Origin: an uncultured Litoreibacter sp.
GTDB taxonomy: Bacteria > Pseudomonadota > Alphaproteobacteria > Rhodobacterales > Rhodobacteraceae
Assembly: GCA_947501685.1 (NCBI GenBank)
Contig: CANMWQ010000006.1
Span: forward strand, 124,001 to 188,000
Direction of reading: 5' to 3'
Length of the DNA: 64,000 nucleotides
This document shows, piece after piece, positions 3,628 to 62,883 of this stretch. A model generated the notes under the pieces. It was not told the DNA's origin. It did no database searches and saw nothing but the letters and a program-made list of their open reading frames with translations. The position numbers and the translations under genes were made by a program. Every line of letters starts with the position of its first letter. The stretch's first letter is position 1.

Positions 3628-3659
3628 CCCAAATGTGCCTGCGGCCCAGTTTTGTTTTG

Positions 3660-4598: not shown

Positions 4599-4608
4599 GC
4601 GCGCCTCT

Positions 4609-5112: not shown

Positions 5113-5235
5113 AGACCGCCTGCCTGACTGCATTTCAATGTGCATTTTTGCCATATGCGGGGCTTATTGAACTTGCCCCTTCTGGCGCGATCTTGTCATC
5201 ATAGAGCCAGGATTTCCAGCGCCCGGAGGCATGAG

Positions 5236-6222: not shown

Positions 6223-6245
6223 GCTGGTTTGGTTTGGCTCGACGG

Positions 6246-6371: not shown

Positions 6372-6386
6372 TGGAATGCTGCGCGC

Positions 6387-48190: not shown

Positions 48191-48874
48191 TCAGGTTTCA
48201 GGGACGGGGCGCAGCTCGCCGCTGGCACCTCCGTCGCGCAGGTTGCGCTTCATGTGGTCGTAGAGTGCAAGCTTGCAGCGCGCCACGTCACGGGTCAGGG
48301 CGGCGTCGAGAATTTCGAGATGCTCGGGCACATTTTCAGAGTGATAGCCATATTGCGGCTGCATGATCTTTTGCTGGCGGAACTGGTCATAGGTGCGCCG
48401 GTAACCCAGTCGCAAAAACGGTGAGTCGCAGGCGGAGAGCAGCGCGTCGTGAAATTCGCGTTCGGCAAGCGACCAGAGGCGCAGCGCCTCGCCTTGCAGG
48501 TTCGGCCCGGTGATCTGGGCCTCGATATGGGACAGTTTTGTATGGGAGGCGGACAGCTCGGCCTCCCATTGCAGGCCGCCTTTTTCGATTGAGGCAGTGG
48601 CGCCCTCCTGTTCCAACATGATGCGGAACTTGGTCAGGTAATGCAGCCGTTCGGGGTCCAGTGGTCGGGCGCGAAAGCCGCGTTGCTCTTCAAACAGCAC
48701 CAGACCTTCGGAGGCCAGACGGAACAAGACCTCGCGCACTGTATTGGCGGAGCATGCATATTTTTCGCGCAAATGCTCGGAGCGCAGCTTCGCCCCTTGC
48801 GGGATCTGGGCGGTGACCAGCTGCATATGAAGGTCTTCATAGATTTGGGGGGTGGTGCTTCTGTTTTGCTGCAT
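48191..48874 (-). CDS. GntR-family regulator with FCD domain
   Basis: A 227-residue FadR-type regulator: winged helix (about 10-70, KLRSEHLREKYACSANTVRE then LASEGLVLFEEQRGFRA) and a helical FCD ligand-binding domain with LAEREFHDALLSACDSPFL and HSENVPEHLEILDAALTRD, whose Asp/His residues usually bind a metal and a carboxylic acid. It is divergent from the TRAP operon and probably its repressor, released by a sugar acid. ATG at 48874 is preferred to 48913; neither has a strong ribosome-binding site. Confidence 0.88.
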   Translation of the reverse strand: MQQNRSTTPQIYEDLHMQLVTAQIPQGAKLRSEHLREKYACSANTVREVLFRLASEGLVLFEEQRGFRARPLDPERLHYLTKFRIMLEQEGATASIEKGGLQWEAELSASHTKLSHIEAQITGPNLQGEALRLWSLAEREFHDALLSACDSPFLRLGYRRTYDQFRQQKIMQPQYGYHSENVPEHLEILDAALTRDVARCKLALYDHMKRNLRDGGASGELRPVPET

Positions 48875-48936
48875 TGCGGCGTCGTCCCGAAAAAATTTGA
48901 ATGCCACTGCCATAGACCAGAATTGCGAAATTTTAC

Positions 48937-48954
48937 AATAATTTCAAAATTATT
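48937..48954. promoter_or_regulatory. Candidate GntR operator, AATAATTT palindrome
   Basis: AATAATTT-CA-AAATTATT is a perfect eight-base inverted repeat in the AT-rich spacer between the divergent gntR and dctP genes. Its place, 115 bases before dctP and 62 before gntR, suits an operator or promoter control site for both. Not tested. Confidence 0.5.
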
Positions 48955-49069: not shown

Positions 49070-50092
49070 ATGAGTTTCGTGAAAACCGCTGCGACAGCTG
49101 TCGCGGCAGCAGCTATTGCTGCAACCGGCGCATTTGCTGATGGCCATGCCAGCACCAACCTGCGCATTCAAACGCACTACACGCCAGAGAACAACTCCGG
49201 CAAACTTATCCAGAAATTTGTCGACAATGTTCAGACCATGTCCAATGGCGAGATCACCGTCGAGATGTTCTGGTCGTCCTCGGTCGTGAAATCCGTTGAG
49301 GGTTTTGACGCGGCAGCGACAGGCATTCTGGATTGTGAAATGCATGGCGGTGGCTACCAAACAGGTAAGAACCCTGCGTTCCAATTCGTGGGCGACATCA
49401 TGGGCGGCTACGACACGCCTTACCAACAGCTGAGCTGGCTATATTACGCGGGCGGGCTTGACGCCGCGCAGGAGCTTTACAACCAATATGACATGCAGCT
49501 TGTTGGCTGGTGGATCTACGGCCAGGAGAGCTTTGCCTCCACACGCCCCATCGCGTCGACCGAAGACCTGAAGGGCTGGAAATTCCGTTCGCCTCCGGGC
49601 ATGGAAACGATGATCTTTGAGCGTCTCGGCGCGTCCCCCATCGTGATGGATTTCACCGAGATCTTCACCGCGCTGGAAACAGGTATCATCGACGGCGCTG
49701 ACGCGTCCGGTCTGGCCAATAACAAAGGTCTGGGTCTCTACGATCTGGCGAAACACGCCAACTACCCTGGCTTCCACTCGATGCCATCTGACCACCTTGC
49801 CTGTAACAAAGGTGTTTGGGACGGCATGCCAGAGCATCACCGTCGCATCCTGTCGGTGGGCATGGAAAGCCTCGCGCTGCAAACCGCTCTGCAGACAGAG
49901 ATTGCCAACACCGAAGCGCTGGCAACTCTGAAAGCCGATGGCGTGACCATCCACACATGGTCGCCAGAAGAGCTGAAGAAATTCCGCAACGCCGCACAAG
50001 GCGCGTGGGACGACTTTGCGACCACTCCTGAGGCGAAGGCACTTGTGGCCAGCCACCGGTCGTATCTGCAGCAGCTTGGTCTGGTTGACTAA
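49070..50092 (+). CDS. dctP: TRAP transporter solute-binding protein (DctP)
   Basis: A 340-residue periplasmic binding protein with signal peptide (about 1-23, ending GAFADG). LRIQTHYTPENNSGKLIQKF begins the mature domain; the Arg in GWKFRSPPGMET is the residue that usually clamps a substrate carboxylate, and FTEIFTALETGIIDGADAS is the family hinge region. The frame is open from 49022, but ATG at 49070 has a GGGAGGAAA site and starts the signal peptide. Strong terminator follows at 50118. Confidence 0.92.
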   Translation: MSFVKTAATAVAAAAIAATGAFADGHASTNLRIQTHYTPENNSGKLIQKFVDNVQTMSNGEITVEMFWSSSVVKSVEGFDAAATGILDCEMHGGGYQTGKNPAFQFVGDIMGGYDTPYQQLSWLYYAGGLDAAQELYNQYDMQLVGWWIYGQESFASTRPIASTEDLKGWKFRSPPGMETMIFERLGASPIVMDFTEIFTALETGIIDGADASGLANNKGLGLYDLAKHANYPGFHSMPSDHLACNKGVWDGMPEHHRRILSVGMESLALQTALQTEIANTEALATLKADGVTIHTWSPEELKKFRNAAQGAWDDFATTPEAKALVASHRSYLQQLGLVD

Positions 50093-50117
50093 ACTGCCGC
50101 GCGATTGCGCATAAGAT

Positions 50118-50155
50118 GCCGTCTCGCCAGCCTTTTGGGTGGCGGGACGGTTTTT
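50118..50155 (+). terminator. Rho-independent terminator between dctP and dctQ
   Basis: An eleven-base stem (50119-50129 with 50140-50150, one G-U pair) with extra GCC/GGG pairing near a TTTT loop is followed by five T residues. It lies 26 bases after the dctP stop and before dctQ, so most transcripts should end here and only read-through reach the permeases and catabolic genes. This suits the high demand for binding protein. Confidence 0.8.
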
Positions 50156-50198
50156 CACCGATACCGGTGAACTGGACAAAACACCGGGGCGGGGACCG

Positions 50199-51038
50199 AT
50201 GGAAAGACATGTAAGAGCCAGCGAAGTCATAGCGCCAACGCTGTTCATCATCTGCGCCGCCTGGCTGGCGTGGCACGCACCTGCCTTCATTCTGGACTGG
50301 TCTGGTGACACTGGCAGCGCGTCCGACAACCTGCGCGGCCTGCATTTGCGCAATGACGTCACACCGAATATGGGCGGCCCTTTTGGAGGTGTCGCCGACT
50401 GGATCGACTATCTGGCCTTGATTGGGTTGCCTGTTTTTCTGGTGATCGGCATTCGCACCGTGCGGCAAGCGGCGATGGAGTATGAAAGCTGGCGCGCCAT
50501 TGATCGCGCCGCCGTGTTTATTGGCCGCGTTACCATGGTGCTGATCGTGCTGTTGACCAGCGTGATGCTCTACGAGGTTCTGCTGCGCTACGTGTTCGAG
50601 GCCCCGACGCTTTGGGCTAACGAGCTGTCGCTTTGGCTGGCCGGGTTCGTCTTTCTCTGCGCCGGGCTTTATGCCATGCAGCAACGCTCCCACATCCGCA
50701 TTTACCTGATCTACGACATGTTCCCGCGCTGGTTGCAGCGGGTCTGCGACGTGATCTCCACCTCGCTGATCGTCGCTTTCGCCGCCTTCCTGATCTATGG
50801 CGGTTATGGCGAGGCGTTCCAGAAATTTGGCCGCTGGGAGACCTTTGGCACCGCCTTTGATCCGCCCATCCCCGCGACACTCAAGCCGATGGTGCTGCTG
50901 ATCGTGGCGCTGGTGGCTGCGCAGGCGGTGATCAACCTGTTCTCTGACTGGAACAACGAGCCGGTGATCCACAGCGCCGCTGACGACATTGACGACGACG
51001 AAATTGAGCGGCTGAAAAAAGCCGTGGGGGCCGACTAA
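50199..51038 (+). CDS. dctQ: TRAP transporter small permease (DctQ), extended
   Basis: A 279-residue membrane protein, longer than most DctQ proteins (about 160-200). The C-terminal two thirds hold the usual four helices with NELSLWLAGFVFLCAGLYAM and HIRIYLIYDMFP; the N-terminal extension adds two helices (about 13-31 and 66-84) with a periplasmic loop between. The frame is open from GTG 50139 inside the terminator stem, so ATG at 50199 is chosen. Confidence 0.85.
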   Translation: MERHVRASEVIAPTLFIICAAWLAWHAPAFILDWSGDTGSASDNLRGLHLRNDVTPNMGGPFGGVADWIDYLALIGLPVFLVIGIRTVRQAAMEYESWRAIDRAAVFIGRVTMVLIVLLTSVMLYEVLLRYVFEAPTLWANELSLWLAGFVFLCAGLYAMQQRSHIRIYLIYDMFPRWLQRVCDVISTSLIVAFAAFLIYGGYGEAFQKFGRWETFGTAFDPPIPATLKPMVLLIVALVAAQAVINLFSDWNNEPVIHSAADDIDDDEIERLKKAVGAD

Positions 51039-51039
51039 C

Positions 51040-52665
51040 ATGGATATCGGAACGATCTCACTGGTCCTGCTGCTGGGCCTTCTGGTGCTGCTTGCCATCG
51101 GCATGCCGCTGGGCTTTGCCTCCGCCATCCTGGCTGTGCTGGTCCTTGTGATGAAGTTTGAGCCGCAGCTGCTTTGGGCGCCCTGGACCTTCGGGGACGG
51201 CATCCTGACAGGGAGGCCGGGGAGCGGACCCCTCAATATCTTATCGCAGAAAATATACGGGCTTTTAACGGACTATGTCCTCATATCGATCCCGCTGTTC
51301 ATCTTCATGGCGGCGCTGCTGGAACGCTCTGGCATCGCCAAGGACATGTATTCGTCGCTTAATATCTGGCTGAACCGTACGCGGGGCGGCATCGCGGTGG
51401 TGACGTCGATTATGGCGGTGATCATGGCGGCGATGTCGGGCATTATCGGTGGCGAGGTGGTTCTGCTGGGCCTGATCGCGCTGCCGCAGATGCTGCGGCT
51501 GGGCTATAACCAGAACCTCGCTATCGGGACGATTTGCGCGTCCGGCTCGCTGGGGACGATGATCCCGCCCTCAATCGTGCTGATCATTTACGGGCTGGTG
51601 ACGGAAACCTCGATCAAGGCGCTGTTCACCGCGTCCTTCCTGCCGGGCTTTATGCTGGCCTCCTTCTTCATCATCTACATCCTTGTGCGCACCCGCCTGC
51701 GCCCCGAGGACGCACCCCTTCCCGACGCCGTTCCGGGAGAGCCCGAGGGCCTTGAGAAATGGATGCTCTTTGGCGGCTTCTTGTCGGTGGTGGTCGTGGG
51801 CGCGTGGAGCTTTTTTGCAGCGCGTGTTTTGTTCTTTGAGTTCTCCGGCCAGAACGCGTCGAACACGGGCGACCCGATCCGGTTTGGGACCATGGATTAC
51901 CTGCCGTGGTTTCTTGGCACCATCGCCGTGGCGCTGTTGCTGATGTTCTTTGTCTTCGGATTGGAGCGGACCAAGAAGGGCTGGGATATGGGCAAGGGGC
52001 TGGTGCCGCCGATCATCATTATCGGCGTGGTGCTGGGCTCCATCTATATGGGCATCACCGGCATCACGGAGGCCGCTGGGATGGGTGCGTTTGCCGTGCT
52101 CGTCATGGCTGCACTCAGGGGTGAGGCGTCTTGGGATCTTCTGTGGGACTCGCTGATGCGGACGCTGAAATCCACCGGCACGATCATCTGGGTGACCATC
52201 GGTGCGGCGGCGCTGGCAGGCGCTTACACCATCGCGGGCGGGCCGGTCTTTGTGGCCGATCTGGTCGTGGGGCTCGACGTGCCGACCATGGGTGTCATTC
52301 TGGTGATGATGGTGATCCTGCTGTTCATGGGTGCCTTCATGGATTGGGTTGGGATTGTGCTGTTGATCATCCCAGTCTTCCTGCCAATTGTCCTGCGCCT
52401 GCCCATCGAGGAGATCGGGGTCTTTGGCCAGCTTGAGGCCAAACATGTGGCGATCTGGTTCGGGGTTGTGTTCTGTATGAACATGCAGGTCAGCTTCCTG
52501 TCGCCGCCCTTTGGCCCTGCGGCCTTTTACCTGAAATCGGTGGCCCCGCCGCATATCTCGCTGACGGATATCTTCAAAGGCTTCCTGCCCTTTATCGCGA
52601 TCCAGCTCTGCGCGCTGTCGGTGCTGCTGATCTGGCCTCCGATTGTCGCGCTTCTTTTGCCGTAA
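51040..52665 (+). CDS. dctM: TRAP transporter large permease (DctM)
   Basis: A 541-residue permease with about twelve or more helices; it moves the substrate by Na+ symport. IGMPLGFASAILAVLV, SGIIGGEVVLLGLIALPQM, GSLGTMIPPSIVLIIYGLVTE and FMGAFMDWVGIVLLIIPVF are the expected motifs. It is longer than the 430-residue standard because of an extra loop-and-helix segment in the middle (about 225-320). It starts one base after the dctQ stop. Confidence 0.92.
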   Translation: MDIGTISLVLLLGLLVLLAIGMPLGFASAILAVLVLVMKFEPQLLWAPWTFGDGILTGRPGSGPLNILSQKIYGLLTDYVLISIPLFIFMAALLERSGIAKDMYSSLNIWLNRTRGGIAVVTSIMAVIMAAMSGIIGGEVVLLGLIALPQMLRLGYNQNLAIGTICASGSLGTMIPPSIVLIIYGLVTETSIKALFTASFLPGFMLASFFIIYILVRTRLRPEDAPLPDAVPGEPEGLEKWMLFGGFLSVVVVGAWSFFAARVLFFEFSGQNASNTGDPIRFGTMDYLPWFLGTIAVALLLMFFVFGLERTKKGWDMGKGLVPPIIIIGVVLGSIYMGITGITEAAGMGAFAVLVMAALRGEASWDLLWDSLMRTLKSTGTIIWVTIGAAALAGAYTIAGGPVFVADLVVGLDVPTMGVILVMMVILLFMGAFMDWVGIVLLIIPVFLPIVLRLPIEEIGVFGQLEAKHVAIWFGVVFCMNMQVSFLSPPFGPAAFYLKSVAPPHISLTDIFKGFLPFIAIQLCALSVLLIWPPIVALLLP

Positions 52666-52713: not shown

Positions 52714-54219
52714 ATGAAAGACTACATCCGCCTTGATCCCGACGACAATGTCGTCACGGCCACGCGGGCGCTGGAGGTGGGGGTTGAGGTCGCAGATGGC
52801 AAGACCACCACGGCTCTGATTCCGTCGGGCCATAAGGTGGCTATTCGTGCGATCCCCAAGGGCGACCAGATCCGCAAATATGCGCAGATGATTGGGGTGG
52901 CCTCGGACCACATCGCTCCGGGGGAGCATGTGCATGTGCATAATTGCGACTTCGTGGCGACGGATCAGGACTATGAGTTTGGCACTGATATGCGGCCCGT
53001 GGCGGCTGCGTTAGGTGACACATTCATGGGCTACCGGCGCGAGAATGGCGGCGTGGGAACGCGCAACTACATTGCGATTGTGACTTCGGTGAATTGCTCG
53101 GCCACAGCGGCGCGGCGGATTGCGGATCATTTTACGGAGGAGCGGTTGGCCGACTATCCGAATGTCGACGGGGTCTGCGCCTTTGTGCATGGCACAGGCT
53201 GCGGCATGGCCGATAGCGGCGACGGGTTCGAGGCGTTGCAGCGCGTGATGTGGGGCTACGCCAAACACCCCAACCATGCGGGCGTGTTGATGGTGGGTCT
53301 GGGCTGCGAGATGAACCAGATCGACTGGCTGGTGGAGGCTTACGGGCTGAAGATGTCCGAGACGTTTCAGGTGATGAACATTCAGGGCGTGGCCGGGCTA
53401 CAGAAAACCATCGAGATGGGGATTGCCAAAGTCGAGGCGATGCTACCGATTGCCAATGAGGCCCGCCGCGAGGCCTGTCCTGTGTCGGAGCTGAAGGTCG
53501 CGCTGCAATGTGGCGGCTCGGACGCGTGGTCTGGGGTGACGGCCAATCCCGCACTTGGATATGCGTGTGATTTGCTGGCAGCACAAGGCGGCACCGGGGT
53601 GCTGGCGGAGACGCCTGAGATTTACGGCGCGGAGCATTTGCTGACGCGCCGCGCGGTGTCGCCCGCCGTCGGGGAACGGCTGATCGGACTGATTGACTGG
53701 TGGAAGGATTACACGGAACGCAACCGTGGCTCGATGGATAACAACCCCAGCCCCGGCAATAAGAAGGGCGGGCTCACCACGATTTTGGAGAAGTCGCTGG
53801 GGGCCGCAGCCAAGGGGGGGACGTCTCCGCTGACGGGCGTTTACAAATATGCCGAGCCGGTGACGGCCAAAGGGTTCACCTTCATGGACTCGCCCGGATA
53901 CGATCCCGCCAGCGTCACGGGGCAGATCGCAGGGGGCTGTCAGGTGGTGGTGTTCACCACGGGGCGTGGCTCCGCCTTTGGATCGAAACCCGCGCCGACG
54001 ATCAAGGTCGCCACCAACACCGAGATGTATGCGCGCATGACCGATGACATGGATGTTAATGCGGGCGACATGCTGTCAGGGGGCGTGACCTTGGAACAAA
54101 AAGGCCGCGAAATTTATGAACTGATCCTTGCCGTGGCGTCGGGGGAGGTGTCGAAGTCCGAAGCGCAGGGCTTGGGGGATTATGAGTTCGTGCCATGGCA
54201 GATCGGGGCCGTGATGTGA
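52714..54219 (+). CDS. UxaA-family altronate/galactarate dehydratase
   Basis: A 501-residue two-part enzyme: N-terminal SAF domain (about 1-95, with VTATRALEVGVEV and HVHNCDFV) and a C-terminal dehydratase domain with GYRRENGGVGTRNYIAI, HGTGCGMA, GLGCEMNQ and QCGGSDAWSG. It removes water from an acid sugar such as D-altronate, galactarate or a related uronate product. First gene of the tight catabolic operon and likely the entry dehydratase. Cys residues in the C-terminal domain would hold a metal or iron site. Confidence 0.9.
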   Translation: MKDYIRLDPDDNVVTATRALEVGVEVADGKTTTALIPSGHKVAIRAIPKGDQIRKYAQMIGVASDHIAPGEHVHVHNCDFVATDQDYEFGTDMRPVAAALGDTFMGYRRENGGVGTRNYIAIVTSVNCSATAARRIADHFTEERLADYPNVDGVCAFVHGTGCGMADSGDGFEALQRVMWGYAKHPNHAGVLMVGLGCEMNQIDWLVEAYGLKMSETFQVMNIQGVAGLQKTIEMGIAKVEAMLPIANEARREACPVSELKVALQCGGSDAWSGVTANPALGYACDLLAAQGGTGVLAETPEIYGAEHLLTRRAVSPAVGERLIGLIDWWKDYTERNRGSMDNNPSPGNKKGGLTTILEKSLGAAAKGGTSPLTGVYKYAEPVTAKGFTFMDSPGYDPASVTGQIAGGCQVVVFTTGRGSAFGSKPAPTIKVATNTEMYARMTDDMDVNAGDMLSGGVTLEQKGREIYELILAVASGEVSKSEAQGLGDYEFVPWQIGAVM

Positions 54220-55214
54220 GACTGCTGGTCGCGGGCATCGGGCTGATAGGTGCCCGGCATCTGCGCCATGCGTTGGAGATGCCGGAGATTGACGTGGTGG
54301 GCTGCATTGACCCTGCCCTGACGCAAAGCGAGGTCCCACATTTCACGACGATCGCGGATGTGGATGTGGAGGCCGACGGCATCGTCATTGCCACGCCCTC
54401 GCATCTGCATGCCGAACACGCCGAGGCCGCCGCCGCGCGGGGCTGGCATATGTTGATCGAGAAACCTGTGGCCCATTCTGTCGCCGCTGCGGACCGGATT
54501 GTGGATGCGGCCGCGCGGGCAGGGGTTCAGGTTTTGGTGGGGCATCACCGTCGTCATCATGCGCATGTTTCGGCGTTGAAAAAGATGTTGGACAATGGGG
54601 CGGTGGGCGCGCCGGTCTTGGCCTCGTTGATCTGGGCGATGAAGAAGCCGGACGCGTATTTTGCGCAGAATTGGCGGGCGGGGGCGGATGGGTCTCCGGT
54701 GATGATCAACCTTGTCCATGAGGTGGATCTGCTGCGTTTTTTGTTCGGGGATGTGGTCAGCGTGGCCGGGGTCGGCTCGAACGCGCAACGCGGGGCGGCG
54801 CGGGTCGAAAGCGGGGCGGTGGTGCTCGGCTTTGAAGGCGGCATGGCCGCGACGATTGCCTTTGCGGACACGACGCCCAGCCCTTGGGGGTTCGAGGCCG
54901 GGACCGGGGAGAACCCGAACATCGCGACGACGGGCGAGGATTATTTGCGGATCGCGGGCACGCAAGGTGCTGTGAGTTTTCCATCCATGACGCTGTGGAG
55001 CGGGGCGGCGGATTGGTCGCAGGCGCCTGACAGCAAGGTGCAGGATGTGGTGCGCAACGTGCCATTGACCGCGCAACTGGCTCATTTCGTGGATGTGGCC
55101 GCCGGTCGCGCGGCGCCGTTGGTGGACGCTGTCGAGGGGCGCAGGTCGCTGGACGTGACCTTGCAGATCGAGGCGGCCGTGGCGCCGCGGATGAAGGCCT
55201 CGGCATGCGCTTGA
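54216..55214 (+). CDS. Gfo/Idh/MocA-family oxidoreductase, copy 1
   Basis: A 332-residue NAD(P)-dependent enzyme: AGIGLIGARHLRHA cofactor motif, TPSHLHAEHAEAAAARG, catalytic Lys in LIEKPVAHS, and the substrate-site His in NLVHEVDLLRFL. The family oxidises or isomerises inositols, sugars or aminosugars through a 3-keto stage. The GTG start at 54216 overlaps the UxaA stop by four bases. Substrate unknown. Confidence 0.88.
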   Translation: MRLLVAGIGLIGARHLRHALEMPEIDVVGCIDPALTQSEVPHFTTIADVDVEADGIVIATPSHLHAEHAEAAAARGWHMLIEKPVAHSVAAADRIVDAAARAGVQVLVGHHRRHHAHVSALKKMLDNGAVGAPVLASLIWAMKKPDAYFAQNWRAGADGSPVMINLVHEVDLLRFLFGDVVSVAGVGSNAQRGAARVESGAVVLGFEGGMAATIAFADTTPSPWGFEAGTGENPNIATTGEDYLRIAGTQGAVSFPSMTLWSGAADWSQAPDSKVQDVVRNVPLTAQLAHFVDVAAGRAAPLVDAVEGRRSLDVTLQIEAAVAPRMKASACA

Positions 55215-56023
55215 AGGCGGGATTGATCGGGGCGCATATCTCGCGCACCAGATTGCCAGCGGCGTTGCAGATCATGTGCGACGCGCATGATATGACGCTG
55301 GAGTTCGAGCTCATTGATACGGCTGTGCTAAAGGCATTTGACTTTGACGCCACGGTGCATGGGCTGACCAATCGCGGCTGGACCGGGGTGACGGTGACGC
55401 ATCCCTATAAGACGAATGCCGCGCGCTATGCGGAGGATGGGATGCACCCGGATGTGGCGCATCTGGGGGCGTGTAACACGCTGGTCTTTGGCGAATATCT
55501 GATTGGCTACAACACCGATTTCACCGGGTTTTTGGCGGCCTTCGAGGGTGTACAGGATCGCGGCCCGGTGGTGATGGCGGGGGCAGGGGGCGTGGCGCGG
55601 TCTATCGGGGCGGCGCTGGTCAAGCTGGGGGTTAGCGATCTGGCGATCTACGACCCTGACACGCTGCGGGCAAAGGACCTCGCTTTCAGCATCGGCCCAC
55701 CCGCCCGCGCGATCCCTTCTCATGCTTTCGCGGACACCGTGGCCTCTGCCTCTGGGGTGGTCAATGCCAGCCCGTTGGGGATGGCGGAATATCCGGGCTC
55801 TGCGTTTGATGCAGGCCTGTTGGGCGGACAGGTCTGGGCCTTCGACGCGGTCTACACCCCCACGGACACGCTCTTTTTGCAGGACTGCGCCCGCGCCGGG
55901 CTGCATTGCGTGACCGGGTTTGACCTGTTTCGCCATATGGCGGTGCGCAGCTTTGCGGCCTATACTGGGGCCCTGCCTGATCTTGACGTGGTCTGGCCAA
56001 GACTGGAGGCGCTCAGACCATGA
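55205..56023 (+). CDS. AroE-like shikimate/quinate dehydrogenase paralogue
   Basis: A 272-residue dehydrogenase of the shikimate family. Catalytic Lys69 (VTHPYKTN) and Asp105 (NTDFTGF) and the NAD(P) site VVMAGAGGVARSIG are present. Two shikimate-binding signatures differ: the usual Ser-x-Ser near the N-terminus reads HISRTRLP, and the C-terminal GxxMLxxQ reads GFDLFRHM. It thus probably acts on another cyclic polyol acid, not in aromatic amino acid synthesis. It overlaps the previous gene by ten bases. Confidence 0.85.
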   Translation: MRLKAGLIGAHISRTRLPAALQIMCDAHDMTLEFELIDTAVLKAFDFDATVHGLTNRGWTGVTVTHPYKTNAARYAEDGMHPDVAHLGACNTLVFGEYLIGYNTDFTGFLAAFEGVQDRGPVVMAGAGGVARSIGAALVKLGVSDLAIYDPDTLRAKDLAFSIGPPARAIPSHAFADTVASASGVVNASPLGMAEYPGSAFDAGLLGGQVWAFDAVYTPTDTLFLQDCARAGLHCVTGFDLFRHMAVRSFAAYTGALPDLDVVWPRLEALRP

Positions 56024-56910
56024 GCCTTGAAGCCATCACCCCCGCGCAAAAGGCGTTCTATGAGGAGAACGGCTATCTGGTGTTGGAACACCGGATCCCC
56101 GAAGACATTCTCCACAACATCCGCGCTGAGATTGCGAAATTTCATGAGCAGGCGCGCGGGCTGACGGCCTCCACCGAGCAGATTGATCTGGAGGACAGCC
56201 ATAGCAGCGACGCCCCGAGGGTGCGCCGTATCAAGCTGCCGCATACTCATAACGCGGTGATGCGGGAGCTGATGTATTCCGACCATATTCTGGCCCCCGT
56301 CCGTGACCTGATCGGGCCTGCCCTGCGGCTGCACACCTCAAAACTGAACATGAAGATGGGCGGTTACGGCGCGGCGGTGGAGTGGCATCAGGATTTTGCC
56401 TTTTACCCGCATACCAATGACGACGTGCTGGCCGTTGCCGTGATCATCGACGATATGGGGCCGGAAAACGGCCCGCTGATGGTCTTCCCCGGCTCGCATA
56501 AGCATCCGATCAATGACCATCATGTGGACGGGGTGTTTGCAGGCGCAATGGATCTGGCGGCCTGCGGCTATGACATGAAGGACGCGGTGCAGTTGACGGG
56601 GCCTGCGGGGAGTATCTCGATCCATCATGGGCGGATTGTGCATGGCTCGGCCTTGAATGTCAGCGACCGCGACCGGCGGTTGCTGTTTTACGAAATGATG
56701 GCGGCAGATGCGTTTCCGATCATGGGCTCGATGACCAAGTGGAATGGCATCGCGGATTATGACGCACGGCTTCTTTGCGGGGAGCCGGTGCTGGAGCCTC
56801 GGGTGCAGTCATTGGGCGCACGTATCCCTGCGCCGTTACCGACCGAAGAATTCACCATTTACGAGGTGCAAAAGCAGCTCAAGAACCGCAGTTTCGAGGT
56901 GGCCGAATGA
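56020..56910 (+). CDS. PhyH-family Fe(II)/2-oxoglutarate dioxygenase
   Basis: A 296-residue oxygenase. The iron triad is His123, Asp125 (EWHQDFAF) and His208 (GRIVHGS); LMVFPGSHKHP is typical of phytanoyl-CoA hydroxylase-like enzymes. It would hydroxylate a C-H bond, often next to a methyl or amino group, possibly demethylating the substrate. Four-base overlap with its neighbours on both sides puts it in the same operon. Confidence 0.88.
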   Translation: MSLEAITPAQKAFYEENGYLVLEHRIPEDILHNIRAEIAKFHEQARGLTASTEQIDLEDSHSSDAPRVRRIKLPHTHNAVMRELMYSDHILAPVRDLIGPALRLHTSKLNMKMGGYGAAVEWHQDFAFYPHTNDDVLAVAVIIDDMGPENGPLMVFPGSHKHPINDHHVDGVFAGAMDLAACGYDMKDAVQLTGPAGSISIHHGRIVHGSALNVSDRDRRLLFYEMMAADAFPIMGSMTKWNGIADYDARLLCGEPVLEPRVQSLGARIPAPLPTEEFTIYEVQKQLKNRSFEVAE

Positions 56911-58004
56911 AGGTTGGCGTTGTCGGTGCCGGGTTGATGGGGTCGGCGGCTGCAAGGCATTTGGCCAAAGCCGGCCTCGACGTGACGCTGATTGGTCCTG
57001 GGGAACCTGAGAACAAGCGCACGCATCAAGGTACGTTTGGTTCGCATTATGACGAGGGGCGGATCACGCGGCACAATGCGTTGAAGCCGTTCTGGGTGGA
57101 GGTCTCCAAAGCCTCGATTGCGCGCTATAGCGAGATCGAGGCCGAGAGCGGAATATCCTTTTTCACTGAAACCGGCGCGATGATGGTCGGCTCTGACGCG
57201 TGGATGGCGCAGGTGTATGCGGCGGCTGCTCAGCATGGGGTGGAAAGCCATGCGTTGGATGCAGGCGGGCTGGCGCAGACCTTCCCGTTTTTTAGCTTTG
57301 CTCCGGATCACTCCGGCGCTTACGAGCGCCGCCGCGCGGGCCATGTCAGCCCAAGGCGGCTGGTGGCCGCGCAACAGGCGGCGGCCCTGAGGTACGGGGG
57401 CAGGCGGGTTGTGACCGAGGTACAAAATGTGACGGACGGCAGGGTGCAAAGCTCAGACGGGACGCTTAAATTTGACCATGTGCTTGTCGCCGCAGGCGGC
57501 TGGACGGACGCGATTTTGGGCCGCGCGCCGCATTTGGATGTCTACGCCCGCACGGTTGCGTTTTTCGAGTTGAGCGAGGCGGAGGCCGCGCGGTTGAAAT
57601 CCATGCCTTCGCTTGTGTACGAAGCGCTGGAGGACCCCTATCTTTTGCCGCCGATCCGCTATCCTGATGGCAAGATATATATCAAGCTTGGCGGCGATCC
57701 CGAAGATGTTCGCCTTGACGGGCCGGGCGCGGTGGGCGACTGGTTCCGGGCCGGTGGCAACGCGCAGGTGCGCGACCGGCTGGAGGAGATGATCCGCACG
57801 CTGATGCCCTCGCTCAAGATCGACAGCGTCAGCATGGATGCGTGCGTGACCAGCTGGACCGCCGACCGCCTGCCTGAGATCAGGGCGCTGGGCGACCGGC
57901 TTGCCGTATGCACCGGCGGCAATGGCGCGGGCGCGAAATGCAGTGATGAATTGGGCCGCCGGGGGGCGGCTTTGATACTAGAGAAAATTGGAGAGACGGT
58001 ATGA
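56907..58004 (+). CDS. FAD-dependent amine oxidase (monomeric sarcosine oxidase/SolA-like)
   Basis: A 365-residue flavoenzyme: VVGAGLMGSAAARHLAKAG nucleotide motif at the start, AAGGWTDAILG in the middle and VCTGGNGAGAKCSDELG at the C-terminus, where the Cys takes the place of the flavin-linking Cys of monomeric sarcosine oxidase. It would oxidise a secondary amine or a glycine-type nitrogen. The frame is open back to 56775; ATG at 56907 overlaps the dioxygenase stop by four bases. Confidence 0.86.
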   Translation: MKVGVVGAGLMGSAAARHLAKAGLDVTLIGPGEPENKRTHQGTFGSHYDEGRITRHNALKPFWVEVSKASIARYSEIEAESGISFFTETGAMMVGSDAWMAQVYAAAAQHGVESHALDAGGLAQTFPFFSFAPDHSGAYERRRAGHVSPRRLVAAQQAAALRYGGRRVVTEVQNVTDGRVQSSDGTLKFDHVLVAAGGWTDAILGRAPHLDVYARTVAFFELSEAEAARLKSMPSLVYEALEDPYLLPPIRYPDGKIYIKLGGDPEDVRLDGPGAVGDWFRAGGNAQVRDRLEEMIRTLMPSLKIDSVSMDACVTSWTADRLPEIRALGDRLAVCTGGNGAGAKCSDELGRRGAALILEKIGETV

Positions 58005-58882
58005 GTGACATTGGATTTATTGGCCTCGGCCTGATGGGCGACGCTATGGTGCAATGCCTGCAAAAATGCGGCCATGCGCTGACAGTGGTGGCCAACACGT
58101 CGCGCACCAATGTTGAGGCCGCCGTGGCCCGTGGTGCGACGGAGGTCGGTACCGCCCGCGAGGTCGCTGCGGCGTCGGATATCGTGATGCTCTGCATGGG
58201 CACCTCGGCGCAGGTTGAAAGCCGGATGAACGGCCCCGAAGGTGTGATCGCGGGCTTGCGTCCTGGTGCCGTGGTGATCGACTTCGGCACCTCGCTGCCT
58301 GCCTCTACACGTGCGTTGGGCGAGGCTGTGGCTGCTGCCGGTGGGACGTATCTCGACGGGCCTTTGGGGCGCACCCCGGCGCATGCGCTGGACGGCAATC
58401 TGAACATCATGTGCTCGGGCGACAAGGCGGCGTTTGAAAAGATCAAGCCTGTGCTTGCGGACCTTGGCGAGAACGTGTTCCATCTTGGCGCGCTGGGCTC
58501 TGGGCATACGATCAAATTGATCAACAATTTCATGGGCATGACCGTCGCCAATGCCATGGCGGAGGCCTTTGCCATGGCCGATGTGCAAGGCGTTGACCGC
58601 AAGGCGCTTTATGACGTCATGTCAGCGGGGCCGCTACATTCCGGCATGATGGATTTCGTCAAAGGCTACGGCGTGGATGGCGACCCGGCGCAGCTGGCAT
58701 TTGCGATTAAAAACGCGGCCAAGGACGTGGGCTATTACGCGCAAATGGCCAAGGACGCGGATGTTGCGACGATCATGTCGCGCTCGACTTTGGAAGCATT
58801 GGAATCCGCTCGGGACGATGGGCGCGGCGACGACATGGTCAGCCAAATGGTCGACTTCTACGCCGACCGTTTCAAGGGGTAG
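58001..58882 (+). CDS. 3-hydroxyisobutyrate-dehydrogenase-family oxidoreductase
   Basis: A 293-residue beta-hydroxyacid dehydrogenase: FIGLGLMGDAMVQCL, YLDGPLGRTPAHALDG (in place of the usual DAPVSGG) and catalytic Lys in GSGHTIKLINNFM. The PLGRTP variant is found in glyoxylate-succinic semialdehyde and tartronate semialdehyde reductase relatives. Four-base overlap with the flavoenzyme gene. Paralogue of the 46304 gene, different branch. Confidence 0.87.
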   Translation: MSDIGFIGLGLMGDAMVQCLQKCGHALTVVANTSRTNVEAAVARGATEVGTAREVAAASDIVMLCMGTSAQVESRMNGPEGVIAGLRPGAVVIDFGTSLPASTRALGEAVAAAGGTYLDGPLGRTPAHALDGNLNIMCSGDKAAFEKIKPVLADLGENVFHLGALGSGHTIKLINNFMGMTVANAMAEAFAMADVQGVDRKALYDVMSAGPLHSGMMDFVKGYGVDGDPAQLAFAIKNAAKDVGYYAQMAKDADVATIMSRSTLEALESARDDGRGDDMVSQMVDFYADRFKG

Positions 58883-58891
58883 GATCTCCTG

Positions 58892-59917
58892 ATGCTAAAG
58901 GTCGCATTGATCGGCGCGGGCATGGTGGCAGACACCCATGCGCTGGCGTGCCGTGACAGCGATCTCGTGGAGCTGATCGGTGTCTGCGCCCGCTCGGAAG
59001 AGTCGGCGCAGCGCTATGCGGGCGCTTTAGCGCGCGATCACGGGATGCAGGTGCGCGCCTTTGCCGATGTGGCTGAGGTTGCGGCATCTGAGGCCGATTT
59101 TGTCATTCTTGCGACCCCGCCCGACGCGCGTCTTAAGATCGTGGAGATGCTGGCTCAAGCGGGCAAGCCGATCCTGATGGAAAAACCGGTGGAGCGCAGC
59201 CTGAGTGCTGCGCGCAGCGTCGTGCAAATCTGCGAAGGACGGGTGCCGTTGGGCGTCCTGTTTCAGCACCGCGCGGCGCAGGCATCACAGATCATGCGTG
59301 AGAAACTGCCCGAGCTCGGTGCGCTTCATACGGTTGAAATCACCGCCCCCTGGTGGCGCGACCAAGCATATTATGACGAGCCCGGACGGGGCACTTACGC
59401 GCGTGACGGTGGCGGGGTGCTGATGACGCAGGCGATCCATGTCTTGGACCTGGCGCTGTCCTTCACCGGCCCCGTGCGCAGCGTGCAAGCCTTTGCGCGC
59501 ACCTCACTGGCGCACCGGATGGAGGCGGAGGATTTTGTCTCCGCCGGGTTGGAATTTGCAAACGGGGCTGTTGGCTCGCTGGTTGCCAGCACCGCAAGCT
59601 TTCCGGGCAGTTCTGAAAGTATCAAATTGCATGGCGCAAACGCGTCTGCGGAGGTCAGCCGGGGAGAATTGGTCTGGCACAGCCGCGATGGCCGTTCGCA
59701 GACATTTGGGGCCGCAGCCAAGACCGGGTCAGGAGCCAACCCAATGGCGTTCAGCCACGCGTTGCATCAAGGGATCATTGACGATTTCGCCGACGCCATT
59801 CACCAAGATCGCCCGCCTTTGATCACCGGGCAGGAGGCTTTGAACGTCCATGCTTTGATCGATGCGCTAACGAGGTCCTCGCGCGAGAAAAAGCAGATCG
59901 CGTTGGCAGATGTCTAA
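58892..59917 (+). CDS. Gfo/Idh/MocA-family oxidoreductase, copy 2
   Basis: A 341-residue enzyme: LIGAGMVADTHALAC cofactor motif, LATPPDARLKIVEML, catalytic Lys in LMEKPVERS and the site His in MTQAIHVLDLALS. A long inserted segment (ITAPWWRDQAYYDEPGRG) is typical of members acting on inositol- or glucuronate-like substrates. It starts nine bases after the previous stop, the largest gap in this operon, and overlaps the next gene by eight bases. Confidence 0.87.
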   Translation: MLKVALIGAGMVADTHALACRDSDLVELIGVCARSEESAQRYAGALARDHGMQVRAFADVAEVAASEADFVILATPPDARLKIVEMLAQAGKPILMEKPVERSLSAARSVVQICEGRVPLGVLFQHRAAQASQIMREKLPELGALHTVEITAPWWRDQAYYDEPGRGTYARDGGGVLMTQAIHVLDLALSFTGPVRSVQAFARTSLAHRMEAEDFVSAGLEFANGAVGSLVASTASFPGSSESIKLHGANASAEVSRGELVWHSRDGRSQTFGAAAKTGSGANPMAFSHALHQGIIDDFADAIHQDRPPLITGQEALNVHALIDALTRSSREKKQIALADV

Positions 59918-60920
59918 GCCGCTGCGCATCGGCATTGTGGGCATTGATCACCGCCATATCTATGGCATGGCCGCCCAGATGCAGGCGGTCGGCGCGGAGC
60001 TGGTTTGCTGGTGGACAGAAGGCACGCCGGAGACGCTTGAAGGCTTTGAAAAACGCTTCCCCAATCTGCCTCGGATGGGGTGTGCGCAGGACGTGATCTC
60101 TCGAAAGGATATCGACCTGATCTTGTTGTCGGGCATACCCTCCGAGCGCGCGGATTTCGCCATTGCCGCGATGCAGGCGGGCAAGGATGTGATGAGCGAT
60201 AAGCCCGGCTGCACCACGCTGCACCAGCTGAACCGCGTTAAGGATTGCGTGGCGCAAACAGGCCGCATCTGGTCGATAGATTTCTCCGAACGGTTCGAGG
60301 TTCCTGCCGTCACCCGAGCCGCAGAGCTGGTCGCTGACGGGGCAATCGGGCGGGTGATCCAGACGATTGGCATCGGCCCGCACCGGCTGAACCTGAACAC
60401 CCGGCCAGATTGGTTTTTTGACCCAGTAAAGTTTGGCGGGATTCTGACTGATATCGCCTCGCATCAAATCGACCAGTTCCTGTTCTTTACCGGTTCTCAG
60501 GATGCTGAAGTGACCGATGCAAGCACCGGGAATTACGGCCACCCTGAGACGCCCGGCTTGCAGGATTTTGGGCAGATTGTACTGAAATCCGACAATGCGG
60601 AGGGCTATATCCGTGTTGATTGGTTCACCCCCGATGCGCTGCCTACATGGGGCGACGGGCGGCTGATGCTGCTGGGGACCGAAGGCACGATTGAGCTGCG
60701 CAAATATGTTGATGTTGGCGGAGCGCCGGGTGGGGATCATTTGTTTTTGGTCAATGGCACGCGGTCGGAGCGAATGGACTGCAAGGATGCGGGCCTTCCC
60801 TATTTTGCGCGTCTCGCGGGCGATATTGCGCACCGAACAGAGACTGCAATGCCGCAGGAACATGTCTTTAAAACCATGGAGTTGGCGCTCAAAGCTCAAG
60901 CGATGGCGGAAAACATATGA
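59910..60920 (+). CDS. Gfo/Idh/MocA-family oxidoreductase, copy 3 (divergent)
   Basis: A 336-residue member with GIVGIDHRHIYGMAAQM at the cofactor end instead of a plain GxGxxG, and catalytic Lys in MSDKPGCTTLHQ where the usual Glu-Lys-Pro reads Asp-Lys-Pro. The site His is in DIASHQIDQFLFFTG. The Trp-rich N-terminal part and unusual cofactor loop suggest altered nucleotide preference. Overlaps both neighbours (eight and four bases). Confidence 0.85.
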   Translation: MSKPLRIGIVGIDHRHIYGMAAQMQAVGAELVCWWTEGTPETLEGFEKRFPNLPRMGCAQDVISRKDIDLILLSGIPSERADFAIAAMQAGKDVMSDKPGCTTLHQLNRVKDCVAQTGRIWSIDFSERFEVPAVTRAAELVADGAIGRVIQTIGIGPHRLNLNTRPDWFFDPVKFGGILTDIASHQIDQFLFFTGSQDAEVTDASTGNYGHPETPGLQDFGQIVLKSDNAEGYIRVDWFTPDALPTWGDGRLMLLGTEGTIELRKYVDVGGAPGGDHLFLVNGTRSERMDCKDAGLPYFARLAGDIAHRTETAMPQEHVFKTMELALKAQAMAENI

Positions 60921-61975
60921 TCCGCGTTGCGATCCTTGGTGGGGGCATTGGGGCGGAGCATCTGGCAGGCTACCGCGCGTTGCCGGACCTGTTCGAGGTC
61001 GCTCTGATTTGCGATCTGGACCTGTCCCGCGCGCAGTCAATTGCGGAGGGCCTCAAGGTCAGCAACGACGCGGAAGCGGCGATCAATGCTCCCGATTTTG
61101 ATCTGATCGATATCTGCCTGCCTCCGCATTTGCATGTGCCAATGAGCCTCAAGGCGCTGGCGGCGGGCAAACATGTGATCTGTGAAAAACCTCTGGCCAC
61201 CAGCTTGGCGGATATGGACCTGTTGGAACGGGCTGAGGCGGCATCGGCGGGGACGCTGTTCCCGGTCTTTCAGTACCGCTTTGGCCGGGCGATGGACCAG
61301 CTGCAAGCACTGGACGCGGCGGGTTTGCTGGGGCAGCCGCAAATGGCCAGTCTGGAGACGCATTGGGCGCGCGATACGGCCTATTATGCGGTGCCATGGC
61401 GCGGCACGTGGCAGGGGGAGTGTGGTGGTGCGGTGGTGGGTCATGCGATCCATGCGCATGACCTTTTGAGCCACCTCTTTGGAGGCATTGAAGCGGTTAA
61501 CGCGCAGCTGGCCACGCGCGTCAATCCGATTGAGACCGAGGATTCAGCGGCGCTAAGTTTCACGCTGCAAAACGGCGCATTGGCGACCAGCTCGGTCACG
61601 CTGGGGGCCAGTGATGACACCACGCGTATCCGGCTGATCTATGAGCATCTGACCGCAACCAGCGGCCCGCGCCCCTATGCTCCGATGGATCAGGAGTGGA
61701 GGTTTCAGGCGCGCGATATGAGCGCTCAGTTTGAGGTGGATCAGATCACTGCCGCCGTGCCGCAGGCGCGGGCGGGATTTCCGGGATTTCTGGCGCAGGT
61801 TGCTGCGGCAATCGACGGCCAGGAGAACAATGCAGTGCGCCTAAGTGACGCCCGCGCCTCGATCGAGTTGATCACGGCGATCTATGCCTCCGCGCGGGCA
61901 AACGGGGCGGCTGTGGCTTGCCCAATCGCGCCGGAGCACGCACTTTATCAGGGCTGGTTGCCGGAAGGAGATTAA
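60917..61975 (+). CDS. Gfo/Idh/MocA-family oxidoreductase, copy 4
   Basis: A 352-residue enzyme: ILGGGIGAEHLAGYRAL cofactor motif, ICLPPHLHVPMSLKAL, catalytic Lys in ICEKPLATS and the site His in VVGHAIHAHDLLSHLF. FRYRFG-like QYRFGRAMDQL follows the catalytic region as in many sugar dehydrogenases. The stop is two bases before the kinase start. Substrate unknown. Confidence 0.87.
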   Translation: MIRVAILGGGIGAEHLAGYRALPDLFEVALICDLDLSRAQSIAEGLKVSNDAEAAINAPDFDLIDICLPPHLHVPMSLKALAAGKHVICEKPLATSLADMDLLERAEAASAGTLFPVFQYRFGRAMDQLQALDAAGLLGQPQMASLETHWARDTAYYAVPWRGTWQGECGGAVVGHAIHAHDLLSHLFGGIEAVNAQLATRVNPIETEDSAALSFTLQNGALATSSVTLGASDDTTRIRLIYEHLTATSGPRPYAPMDQEWRFQARDMSAQFEVDQITAAVPQARAGFPGFLAQVAAAIDGQENNAVRLSDARASIELITAIYASARANGAAVACPIAPEHALYQGWLPEGD

Positions 61976-61977
61976 CC

Positions 61978-62883
61978 ATGGGACGTGTCGCAGTCTTGGG
62001 CGTGTTTGTCGCCGATCTGGCCTTTCGTGCCGACCGCATGCCGGTGATGGGAGAGACCCTGTTGGGGCGCTCTTTCGCAATGAACCCGGGCGGAAAAGGC
62101 TCGAACCAAGCGGTGGCAGCGGCGCGGATGGGCGCAGAGGTCGACATGATCACTCGGCTGGGCCAGGACGATTTCGCGCAGATGGCCTTTGCCCTTTGGC
62201 AGGAGGCCGGGATCACGCCGCATGTGACGCAGGACCCCGACAGCTACACTGGCGCTGCTCATATTTTTATCGACGCGAGTAGCGGTGATAATGCGATCAT
62301 AATTGCGCCCGGCGCCGCGGCTGAAATCACACCTGAGGATTTGGAGAACAACCGCGCCGTGATTAAGAGCGCCCGCGTGTTCATGACGCAGCTTGAACAG
62401 CCGCTTGATGCCGCGATGCATGGATTACAGATCGCGCGGGACGCCGGTGTGACGACGATTTTGAACCCGGCACCGGCCGCTGAATTACCGTGGGAGATGC
62501 TGGCATTGTGCGACTACGTCACCCCGAATGAAACCGAAACGCACAGCCTGTGCGGTGTCGAAGTGACGGATGCGGCCAGCGCCCAGACGGCTTGCGATGC
62601 GCTGAAAAATCTGGGCGTCGCGCGCCCGCTGATCACGATGGGCGCGCAGGGGGCCTATTTGGACGGAGTCGGTTTGGTGCCTGCCGTGACGGCCGGGGAC
62701 GTCGTCGAAACGACTGGGGCCGGGGACGCGTTCAATGGCGGGTTTGCGTCCTGTCTGGCGCGAGGCATGTCCCCTGAGGAGGCCGTGCGCATGGCCTGCG
62801 CTGTTGCGGGTCTCTCGGTCACACGCGCGGGGGCGGCCCCTTCGATGCCGATGCGGGACGAGGTCTTGGCACTGCTGGGCTAA
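61978..62883 (+). CDS. rbsK: Ribokinase-family sugar kinase
   Basis: A 301-residue PfkB-family kinase: NPGGKGSNQAVAAARMGA near residue 35 binds the sugar, PNETE and the catalytic Asp in TTGAGDAFNGGFAS bind ATP. It phosphorylates ribose or a related sugar, which may be the carbohydrate released by the upstream enzymes. ATG at 61978 has a strong GGAAGGAG site, so the frame back to 61918 is not used. Last gene of the operon. Confidence 0.9.
   Translation: MGRVAVLGVFVADLAFRADRMPVMGETLLGRSFAMNPGGKGSNQAVAAARMGAEVDMITRLGQDDFAQMAFALWQEAGITPHVTQDPDSYTGAAHIFIDASSGDNAIIIAPGAAAEITPEDLENNRAVIKSARVFMTQLEQPLDAAMHGLQIARDAGVTTILNPAPAAELPWEMLALCDYVTPNETETHSLCGVEVTDAASAQTACDALKNLGVARPLITMGAQGAYLDGVGLVPAVTAGDVVETTGAGDAFNGGFASCLARGMSPEEAVRMACAVAGLSVTRAGAAPSMPMRDEVLALLG

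Follow-up and report, generated by a model that had tools for sequence, protein, structure and literature searches.

A candidate sugar-acid catabolic island with a divergent AroE-like dehydrogenase in an uncultured Litoreibacter

Gene content and layout of the island

In a 64,000-nucleotide stretch of an uncultured Litoreibacter genome (here called the window; positions 124,001 to 188,000 of contig CANMWQ010000006.1 in assembly GCA_947501685.1, which totals 3.3 Mb in 16 contigs), ten codirectional genes at 52714 to 62883 encode a UxaA-type dehydratase, four Gfo/Idh/MocA oxidoreductases (Gfo1 to Gfo4), an AroE-like dehydrogenase, a PhyH-family oxygenase, a sarcosine-oxidase-like flavoenzyme (Sox), a beta-hydroxyacid dehydrogenase (HIB), and a ribokinase-family kinase. 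Together with genes to their left, they form an island that recurs, beside a regulator of its own, in many related marine bacteria. Its most likely role is the uptake and degradation of an unusual sugar acid, for which a relative of an enzyme from an amino-acid pathway would have been repurposed. An initial annotation had described the ten genes as a tightly coupled catabolic operon of unassigned pathway.

All ten open reading frames lie on the plus strand and are free of internal stops, and Pfam supports each family named in that annotation. Overlaps occur at Gfo1/AroE (10 bases), AroE/PhyH, PhyH/Sox, and Sox/HIB (4 bases each), Gfo2/Gfo3 (8 bases), and Gfo3/Gfo4 (4 bases), with gaps of 9 bases at HIB/Gfo2 and 2 bases at Gfo4/kinase (kinase ATG at 61978). 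The UxaA/Gfo1 overlap is 25 bases from the first ATG or 4 bases (GTGA) if Gfo1 starts at GTG 54216, in which case the previously described junctions (overlaps of 4 to 10 bases, gaps of 2 and 9) hold throughout. The four Gfo/Idh/MocA enzymes are indeed distinct, with pairwise identities of 24 to 33%. The genes for DctP, DctQ, and DctM (49070 to 52665), components of a tripartite ATP-independent periplasmic (TRAP) transporter, immediately precede them on the same strand; the gaps range from 1 to about 106 bases with the choice of starts, and the codirectional run therefore comprises 13 genes from 49070. A GntR/FCD regulator gene (48191 to 48913) diverges from the TRAP operon. The ten-gene unit is thus real, intact, and tightly coupled, but its bounds were drawn too narrowly: the run begins at DctP, relatives often carry a left arm (FAH, IlvD, SDR, HIB0, and DenD), and the kinase at the right end recurs at a single related locus.

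The features are listed below by window position; fractions of 46 count the loci of the Met clade of AroE-like genes (defined in the next section; window excluded) at which a gene recurs.

40613..41722, minus: enolase-superfamily protein near 3,6-anhydro-L-galactonate cycloisomerase (PDB 5xd7, E 1.1e-163); left arm, occasional member
41707..42663, minus: D-2-hydroxyacid dehydrogenase (glyoxylate/hydroxypyruvate reductase-like), left arm; Pfam, NCBIfam 205 bits (cutoff 455); 6/46 loci and 9/20 UxaA loci
42660..43460, minus: FAH-family hydrolase nearest 2,4-didehydro-3-deoxy-L-rhamnonate hydrolase; Pfam, NCBIfam NF053535 409 bits, below the cutoff of 500; 8/46 loci and 11/20 UxaA loci
43516..45303, minus: IlvD/Edd sugar-acid dehydratase; Pfam, PDB 7m3k (galactonate dehydratase) E 8e-296; 13/46 loci at >=60% identity
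45383..46126, minus: SDR dehydrogenase, candidate 2-keto-3-deoxyacid 4-dehydrogenase; 17/46 loci
46304..47188, plus: HIB0, beta-hydroxyacid dehydrogenase near tartronate semialdehyde reductase; NCBIfam 250 bits (cutoff 341); 21/46 loci
47185..48159, plus: DenD, D-erythronate dehydrogenase family; NF043036 369 bits, above the cutoff of 325; 15/46 loci
48191..48913, minus: GntR/FCD regulator; Pfam GntR and FCD; 26/46 loci
48919-48934 and 48938-48953, no strand: two operator-like palindromes, consensus AAAATTTCRAAATTTT
49070..50092, plus: DctP, TRAP substrate-binding protein; Pfam; nearest PDB entry 4pe3 (ligand not named), followed by lactate- and ketoacid-binding proteins; 34/46 loci
50199..51038, plus: DctQ, TRAP small permease, start at 50139 or 50199; Pfam; 36/46 loci
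51040..52665, plus: DctM, TRAP large permease; Pfam; 36/46 loci
52714..54219, plus: UxaA/GarD-superfamily sugar-acid dehydratase of its own subfamily; Pfam, conserved Cys; 33/46 loci
54195..55214, plus: Gfo1, Gfo/Idh/MocA oxidoreductase, possible start GTG 54216; Pfam; 32/46 loci
55205..56023, plus: AroE-like dehydrogenase, Met245 clade; Pfam Shikimate_dh_N, alignment, tree
56020..56910, plus: PhyH1, Fe(II)/2-oxoglutarate oxygenase family, accessory; Pfam PhyH; 18/46 loci
56907..58004, plus: Sox, monomeric-sarcosine-oxidase-like flavoenzyme, accessory; Pfam DAO, PDB 1l9c E 9e-16; 5/46 loci
58001..58882, plus: HIB, beta-hydroxyacid dehydrogenase, the commonest partner; Pfam NAD_binding_2/11; 37/46 loci
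58892..59917, plus: Gfo2, Gfo/Idh/MocA oxidoreductase; Pfam; 12/46 loci
59910..60920, plus: Gfo3, Gfo/Idh/MocA oxidoreductase; Pfam, nearest PDB 3u3x, named only "Oxidoreductase"; 12/46 loci
60917..61975, plus: Gfo4, Gfo/Idh/MocA oxidoreductase; Pfam; 5/46 loci
61978..62883, plus: ribokinase-family kinase, lineage-specific; Pfam PfkB; 1/46 loci (L057)

The AroE-like enzyme, the UxaA subfamily, and their gene partners

Relatives of the AroE-like protein were collected from 248 genomes of the family Rhodobacteraceae and from a scan of genome contigs, of which the best 80 of 199 relatives were kept. With the window's own copy as the query, the family search yielded 30 kept loci (given L numbers here, as are all loci): 20 carry the methionine signature described below, and 10 weaker ones (34 to 42% identity) have Asn and Gln at the same positions. 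Copies at least 44% identical occur in 20 of the 248 genomes, this one included. After removal of identical copies and of L141 (the window's own copy), the alignment and tree held 102 different rows, query included, which divide into a Met clade of 47 rows (the window and 46 loci) and 55 Gln-type rows; 54 Gln-clade loci served as controls.

At window position 245, Met stands in 47 rows and Gln in 55, a pattern that corresponds to one change on the tree (SH-aLRT, 99). Position 63 is Asn in all 55 Gln-type rows, whereas the Met rows have Thr (30 rows), Ser (12), Ala (3), Gly (1), or Val (1). The window protein has Thr63 and Met245, and neither Asn nor Gln is found at these positions in any of the 47 clade rows. 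All 102 rows share Lys69, Asp105, Asn91, Thr65, and Asn103. By alignment, positions 63 and 245 correspond to the putative substrate-contacting Asn and Gln of the Corynebacterium glutamicum enzyme, and Lys69 and Asp105 are presumably the catalytic pair of quinate/shikimate dehydrogenase. With the biosynthetic AroE model TIGR00507, the window protein scores 114.9 bits, below the cutoff of 200.2; a canonical aroE (237.7 bits) lies elsewhere in the same genome, as does a third, weaker AroE-like gene. Its probable reaction is the reduction or oxidation of a carboxylate, other than shikimate or quinate, at a hydroxyl or keto group. A residue signature is now available for this subfamily, a Thalassococcus member of which carries the automatic name shikimate dehydrogenase. 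Among five annotated Gln-type cousins that were inspected, three adjoin TctABC genes and a two-domain or TIM-barrel protein that we read as of the dehydroshikimate-dehydratase sort, one of these three also having pca genes, and another cousin adjoins an amidohydrolase gene.

Around the AroE-like genes of the Met clade, the partners listed above recur along with genes for a DMT transporter (22 of the 46 loci), a second PhyH protein, PhyH2 (19), KdgK (11), and UxaC and UxuB (4 each); PhyH1 or PhyH2 is present at 26 loci and both at 11. Each partner family was found at 0 of the 54 control loci at the same thresholds, and the operon is for this reason more than a chance arrangement. Identity thresholds were chosen after the loci had been inspected, and loci lacking an AroE match of at least 180 residues (among them L056, L137-L139, and L142-L144) are outside these counts. 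The counts are lower bounds, because only 33 of the 46 stretches reach at least 18 kb. The co-occurrence of the AroE-like, Gfo/Idh, and dehydratase genes bears out the earlier view of a catabolic operon. Separate conservation with other partners, which would have spoken against that view, is not seen for the core and is seen in part for PhyH, UxaA, and the kinase: UxaA is more widespread than the AroE-like gene, PhyH relatives also occur in other settings, and the kinase recurs at 1 of 46 loci. The nearest relative among the kept contig-scan loci, L057 from another uncultured Litoreibacter (AroE 80% identical), keeps the window gene order including the kinase and has two additional genes, for an enolase-superfamily protein and PhyH2.

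The window UxaA exceeds the Pfam cutoffs for the SAF, second, and C-terminal domains of the UxaA/GarD superfamily, whose listed members include altronate, galactarate, idonate, and arabinonate dehydratases and which has four conserved, proposed iron-binding cysteines (PMC6336799). Cys128, Cys163, Cys198, and Cys266 are present in 80 of 80 aligned rows, Escherichia coli UxaA and GarD included, and we infer from this conservation that they are those four cysteines. In the 80-row set, identity to the window UxaA is 73 to 96% within its own group, 52 to 60% for sister groups, and 36 to 37% for E. coli UxaA and GarD; with the galactarate dehydratase (GarD) model TIGR03248 it scores 385 bits, below the cutoff of 730.85. 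By these sequence criteria the window UxaA represents a subfamily of its own among the UxaA/GarD dehydratases. Searched against the same 248 genomes, this subfamily (at least 65% identity) occurs in 73, of which 55 lack a Met-type AroE. Twenty UxaA loci taken from those 55 genomes, mostly the most similar ones, have HIB (13), SDR (12), DenD (12), FAH (11), DctM (11), DMT (11), IlvD (10), PhyH2 (10), GntR (10), Gfo1 (9), KdgK (8), PhyH1 (5), and Sox (2). Because many of the same partners recur without it, the AroE-like gene is an optional module of a broader island. The occurrence of the UxaA subfamily in 73 of the 248 family genomes sampled means that a carbon route not yet described may be widespread in a major group of marine bacteria.

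In Marivivens, a sister 57% identical to the window UxaA lies beside RbsD/FucU, amidohydrolase, aldo/keto reductase, SDR, and FAH genes, which we read as an L-fuconate-type route layout, and other sisters lie beside relatives of UxuB, UxaC, and SDR5. At loci of PD1222 and R. leguminosarum, a 57% identical UxaA relative is paired with other AroE-like proteins that are 19 to 23% identical to ours and lack the Met signature. At L174 and L196, where UxaA relatives lie beside other AroE-like proteins (19 to 23% identity, Ile at position 63, Gln kept) and DapA-family and aldehyde dehydrogenase genes, the arrangement amounts to a second kind of AroE/UxaA pairing.

PhyH1, the flavoenzyme, and the kinase (18, 5, and 1 of 46 loci) are accessory. 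HIB scores 164 bits with the tartronate semialdehyde reductase model TIGR01505 (cutoff 340.75) and 137.5 with the L-threonate dehydrogenase model NF043037 (cutoff 350), Sox scores 94 bits with the monomeric sarcosine oxidase model TIGR01377 (cutoff 479.65) and 115 with the N-methyltryptophan oxidase model NF008425 (cutoff 257), and PhyH1 scores 75 bits with the ectoine hydroxylase model TIGR02408 (cutoff 336.5), all below the cutoffs. The kinase narrowly exceeds the cutoff of the ribokinase model TIGR02152 (307 against 299.65 bits) and falls below that of NF008353 (279 against 341). Elsewhere, PhyH relatives occur in phosphonate-transporter neighborhoods, where we take them to be hypophosphite-oxygenase-like, and in a natural-product-like locus of Pantoea; neither setting names a substrate. 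On a Pantoea dispersa plasmid (L172, 11065-12951), genes distantly related to those for PhyH1 (34%) and PhyH2 (38%) are adjacent to each other and adjoin genes for a B12-binding radical-SAM protein and an O-methyltransferase.

The enolase-superfamily protein encoded at 40613-41722 is very close to 3,6-anhydro-L-galactonate cycloisomerase, which acts on a red-algal galactan sugar, and a link to agar or carrageenan sugars is possible; distant relatives (about 40% identity) of this protein sit within the operon at L041, L065, and L085. L038 has both KdgK and Eda, an aldolase for 2-keto-3-deoxy-6-phosphogluconate (KDPG) that scores above its cutoff, and at L159 the TRAP genes and UxaA are separated by apionate-type genes that score below the cutoff (2993-6418), for a RuBisCO-like protein and an OiaK-like kinase.

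Operator-like site and co-occurrence with C4-acid genes

The palindrome consensus AAAATTTCRAAATTTT was drawn from five seed loci, and matches with at most 3 mismatches were counted. It is present in the gap between GntR and DctP at 24 of 26 loci (the exceptions are L038 and L087), or 19 of 21 without the seeds, whereas 5 matches were found in 832,585 bases elsewhere and 9 in 999,432 bases of Gln-clade loci. Among UxaA loci not used for the consensus, it occurs in 9 of the 10 having this gap (the exception is L164), with 4 matches outside the gap in 390,878 bases of the 20 loci. The window has just two sites, 48919-48934 and 48938-48953, and 2 of 100 whole-window shuffles reached as many matches. 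The TRAP operon is probably controlled by the divergent GntR protein at this predicted operator. A regulator with a predicted operator makes inducer screens straightforward. A scan of the whole genome at up to 2 mismatches gave four further places (C7:84083, C1:393875 with an overlapping site, C1:440650, and C5:193650). The two that were inspected lie beside genes that appeared housekeeping-like by eye; since these genes have no evident link to the island, we claim no wider regulon. In another sub-branch (L041, L049, and L054), a different palindrome, about TTTGGTATACCAAA, lies upstream of DctP, and L049 and L054 have another GntR type (c13), which for the L041 genome was seen in L217. This suggests that regulator and operator changed together.

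An association with C4-acid genes was seen across the sampled family genomes. A 3-oxo-tetronate (Otn) kinase above the cutoff is present in 51 of the 73 genomes with this UxaA subfamily, compared with 17 of the 60 that have only other UxaA matches (Fisher P = 2.1e-6) and 18 of 115 with no UxaA at E 1e-60; it is also present in 17 of the 20 genomes with a Met-type AroE. By hand comparison of coordinates, nine genomes have it no more than 25 kb from UxaA. It is in or near the island in eight of those nine, which were fetched whole or partly, and at L169; in G106 it is directly beside the left arm. The Litoreibacter genome has one DUF1537 kinase, above the 3-oxo-tetronate kinase cutoff, on another contig, and it adjoins genes whose products share 71% and 59% identity with the OtnC- and OtnI-like proteins, respectively, of L169. 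This OtnI-OtnC-OtnK-like trio (L208, 5144-7793) has no dehydrogenase gene called adjacent to it, a step that the DenD of the window could supply.

Proposed route, alternatives, and comparison with known systems

Our preferred reading, with a probability of about 0.6, is that the region from about 40.6 to 62.9 kb is one catabolic island for the import and breakdown of a modified sugar acid, either aldonic or uronic. It builds on the observed colocalization of its genes, the common operator-like site, the altered AroE site, and the co-occurrence with the Otn kinase; its substrate and every step are proposals. Judging from its family, DctPQM would import the acid. A front end would then unmask it, with PhyH hydroxylating, Gfo1 to Gfo4, the AroE-like enzyme, and HIB moving hydrides, and the flavoenzyme taking part in some lineages; the sole ground for placing PhyH, the Gfo enzymes, the AroE-like enzyme, and the flavoenzyme here is that they vary, whereas the exits are retained. 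UxaA and IlvD may dehydrate the resulting hexonates to 2-keto-3-deoxy acids, as superfamily chemistry and the conserved cysteines suggest. In this genome, SDR or DenD would oxidize C4 and FAH would hydrolyze the 2,4-diketo acid to pyruvate and a hydroxy acid, and the C3 or C4 product could be handled by the hydroxyacid dehydrogenases and by Otn enzymes encoded elsewhere in the genome. Relatives may use KdgK as an alternative exit, L038 with KDPG aldolase as well. In a more specific and unlikely version, an AroE-fold enzyme was recruited from quinate/shikimate catabolism to a ring-form sugar acid (ulosonate/uronate) in an O2-dependent route, with PhyH oxygenases opening an ether- or deoxy-modified acid and the chain possibly starting at a C7 acid. 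If so, FAH cleavage would yield pyruvate and a C4 acid, and this would account for the co-occurrence of DenD and the Otn pathway with the island.

A number of observations weigh against this reading. The zero counts in the controls depend on the thresholds, as weaker relatives are present there (IlvD, 48%, at L130; FAH, 41%, at L111; UxuB, 39 to 40%, at L115 and L126; DctM and GntR, 27 to 38%), and one Gln-type cousin lies with TRAP and DapA-family genes in a sugar-acid-like setting. FAH, HIB, HIB0, and UxaA all score below their NCBIfam equivalog cutoffs. Gammaproteobacterial L069 and L072 keep Gfo1, AroE, and HIB and have no UxaA or TRAP genes, three Rhodospirillales loci (L074, L075, and L081) have a Met-type AroE-like gene but none of the partners, in surroundings that all three share, and L157 and L161, among the 20 UxaA loci, retain few partners. 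Even among the 33 stretches of at least 18 kb, IlvD is found in only 12, FAH in 7, and DenD in 14. The parts vary widely (PhyH1, 18; Sox, 5; Gfo4, 5; and kinase, 1 of 46 loci), and therefore a single linear pathway is not established. A search of the SDR|HIB0 gap and the gap after the kinase found no palindrome of the AAAATTTCRAAATTTT type, and because of the former result we do not claim that the left arm is under joint control. Finally, the Otn/UxaA co-occurrence is an association for which a general sugar-acid lifestyle may account.

Such variation could instead reflect a generalist hub, in which TRAP transport brings in several aldonic acids (C4 to C6) for independent short routes with shared exits, with no single substrate or linear pathway. 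The modules are mosaic across the 46 loci, and SDR5 (read as gluconate 5-dehydrogenase-like), KdgK, UxaC/UxuB, Otn, and RLP/OiaK-like genes are present at some loci and absent from others; we nevertheless consider this arrangement somewhat unlikely, given the overlapping, coupled genes, the one recurrent operator-like site, and the co-occurrence of UxaA, HIB, AroE, and Gfo1 at most loci. It is improbable that the locus is a known Ashwell-type hexuronate (glucuronate/galacturonate) pathway with accessory oxidoreductases. UxaC and UxuB recur at 4 of 46 loci each, KdgK at 11, and UxuA in a Thalassococcus plasmid, but the annotated genes of 40.6 to 62.9 kb include no UxaC or UxaB, the window UxaA is only 36% identical to the D-altronate dehydratase UxaA of E. 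coli, and we know of no place for PhyH, AroE, or FAH in that pathway.

Quite doubtful, too, is a nonphosphorylative route for a 6-deoxyhexonate (L-fuconate or L-rhamnonate), to which the nearest relative of FAH, the sister UxaA in the L-fucose-like Marivivens cluster, and an amidohydrolase near FAH, DenD, and UxaA at L152 would point. The annotated genes of the window island include no mutarotase, sugar dehydrogenase, or lactonase, UxaA is about equally far (52 to 60%) from several sister groups, and the best PDB match of IlvD is a galactonate dehydratase. The initial annotation had named mycosporine-like or methylated cyclitol compounds as one possibility; breakdown of a cyclitol, a quinate-like compound, or a mycosporine is now very unlikely. 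Gfo/Idh enzymes can act on inositols, and the nearest PDB entry to the AroE-like protein is the C. glutamicum quinate/shikimate dehydrogenase, but two conserved site residues are replaced in 47 of 47 rows and, unlike the surroundings of one Gln-type cousin, the window island has no protocatechuate genes. Inositol itself was rejected on the scores of Gfo1 to Gfo4 with the inositol 2-dehydrogenase (IolG) model TIGR04380 (94, 91, 52, and 83 bits; cutoff 355), and the partners that recur belong to sugar-acid metabolism (FAH, IlvD, SDR, DenD, KdgK, and UxaC/UxuB, with Otn in some relatives). Nothing favoring mycosporine-like compounds turned up, although no test was aimed at them specifically. The related suggestion of a methyl or amino group on the substrate drew on the flavoenzyme (5 of 46 loci) and PhyH and is neither shown nor excluded.

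A sugar-acid gene cluster, as in our preferred reading, is of a known kind. No description of this gene set was found in PMC full texts under open licenses, and neither the combination of genes nor the AroE subfamily seems to have been described in that literature. The nonphosphorylative Route III of Herbaspirillum huttiense employs a UxaA/GarD-type dehydratase, an NAD-dependent dehydrogenase, and an FAH-family hydrolase to form glycolate or lactate (and pyruvate) (PMC6336799). It resembles the island in aldonate dehydration, NAD-dependent oxidation, and FAH cleavage, for which the left arm has candidates; in contrast, the island UxaA is of another subfamily by identity, and the available portion of that source names no AroE-like, PhyH, or multiple Gfo/Idh genes (PMC6336799). 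The L-glucose/L-gluconate pathway of Paracoccus laeviglucosivorans 43P has a first enzyme, LgdA, that prefers scyllo-inositol, together with a D-idonate dehydratase (PMC12632266), an enzyme placed in the UxaA/GarD superfamily (PMC6336799). However, its lgdA and lgn genes lie in two separate clusters, and no AroE-like, PhyH, FAH, or TRAP genes are named in the portion of that report available (PMC12632266). Most island genes have no counterpart in the D-erythronate/L-threonate pathway (DenD/LtnD-OtnI-OtnK-OtnC) as presented in PMC10580937, and the window island lacks OtnI, OtnK, and OtnC. Points in common are the window DenD, which exceeds its cutoff, and the Otn genes, which some relatives carry within this island and the present genome carries on another contig. 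The AroE-like protein itself belongs by sequence to the same family as the C. glutamicum quinate/shikimate dehydrogenase (PDB 3jyo), with which its Lys/Asp and Ser/Thr pairs align, whereas every one of the 47 Met-clade rows has other residues opposite the Asn and Gln of that enzyme.

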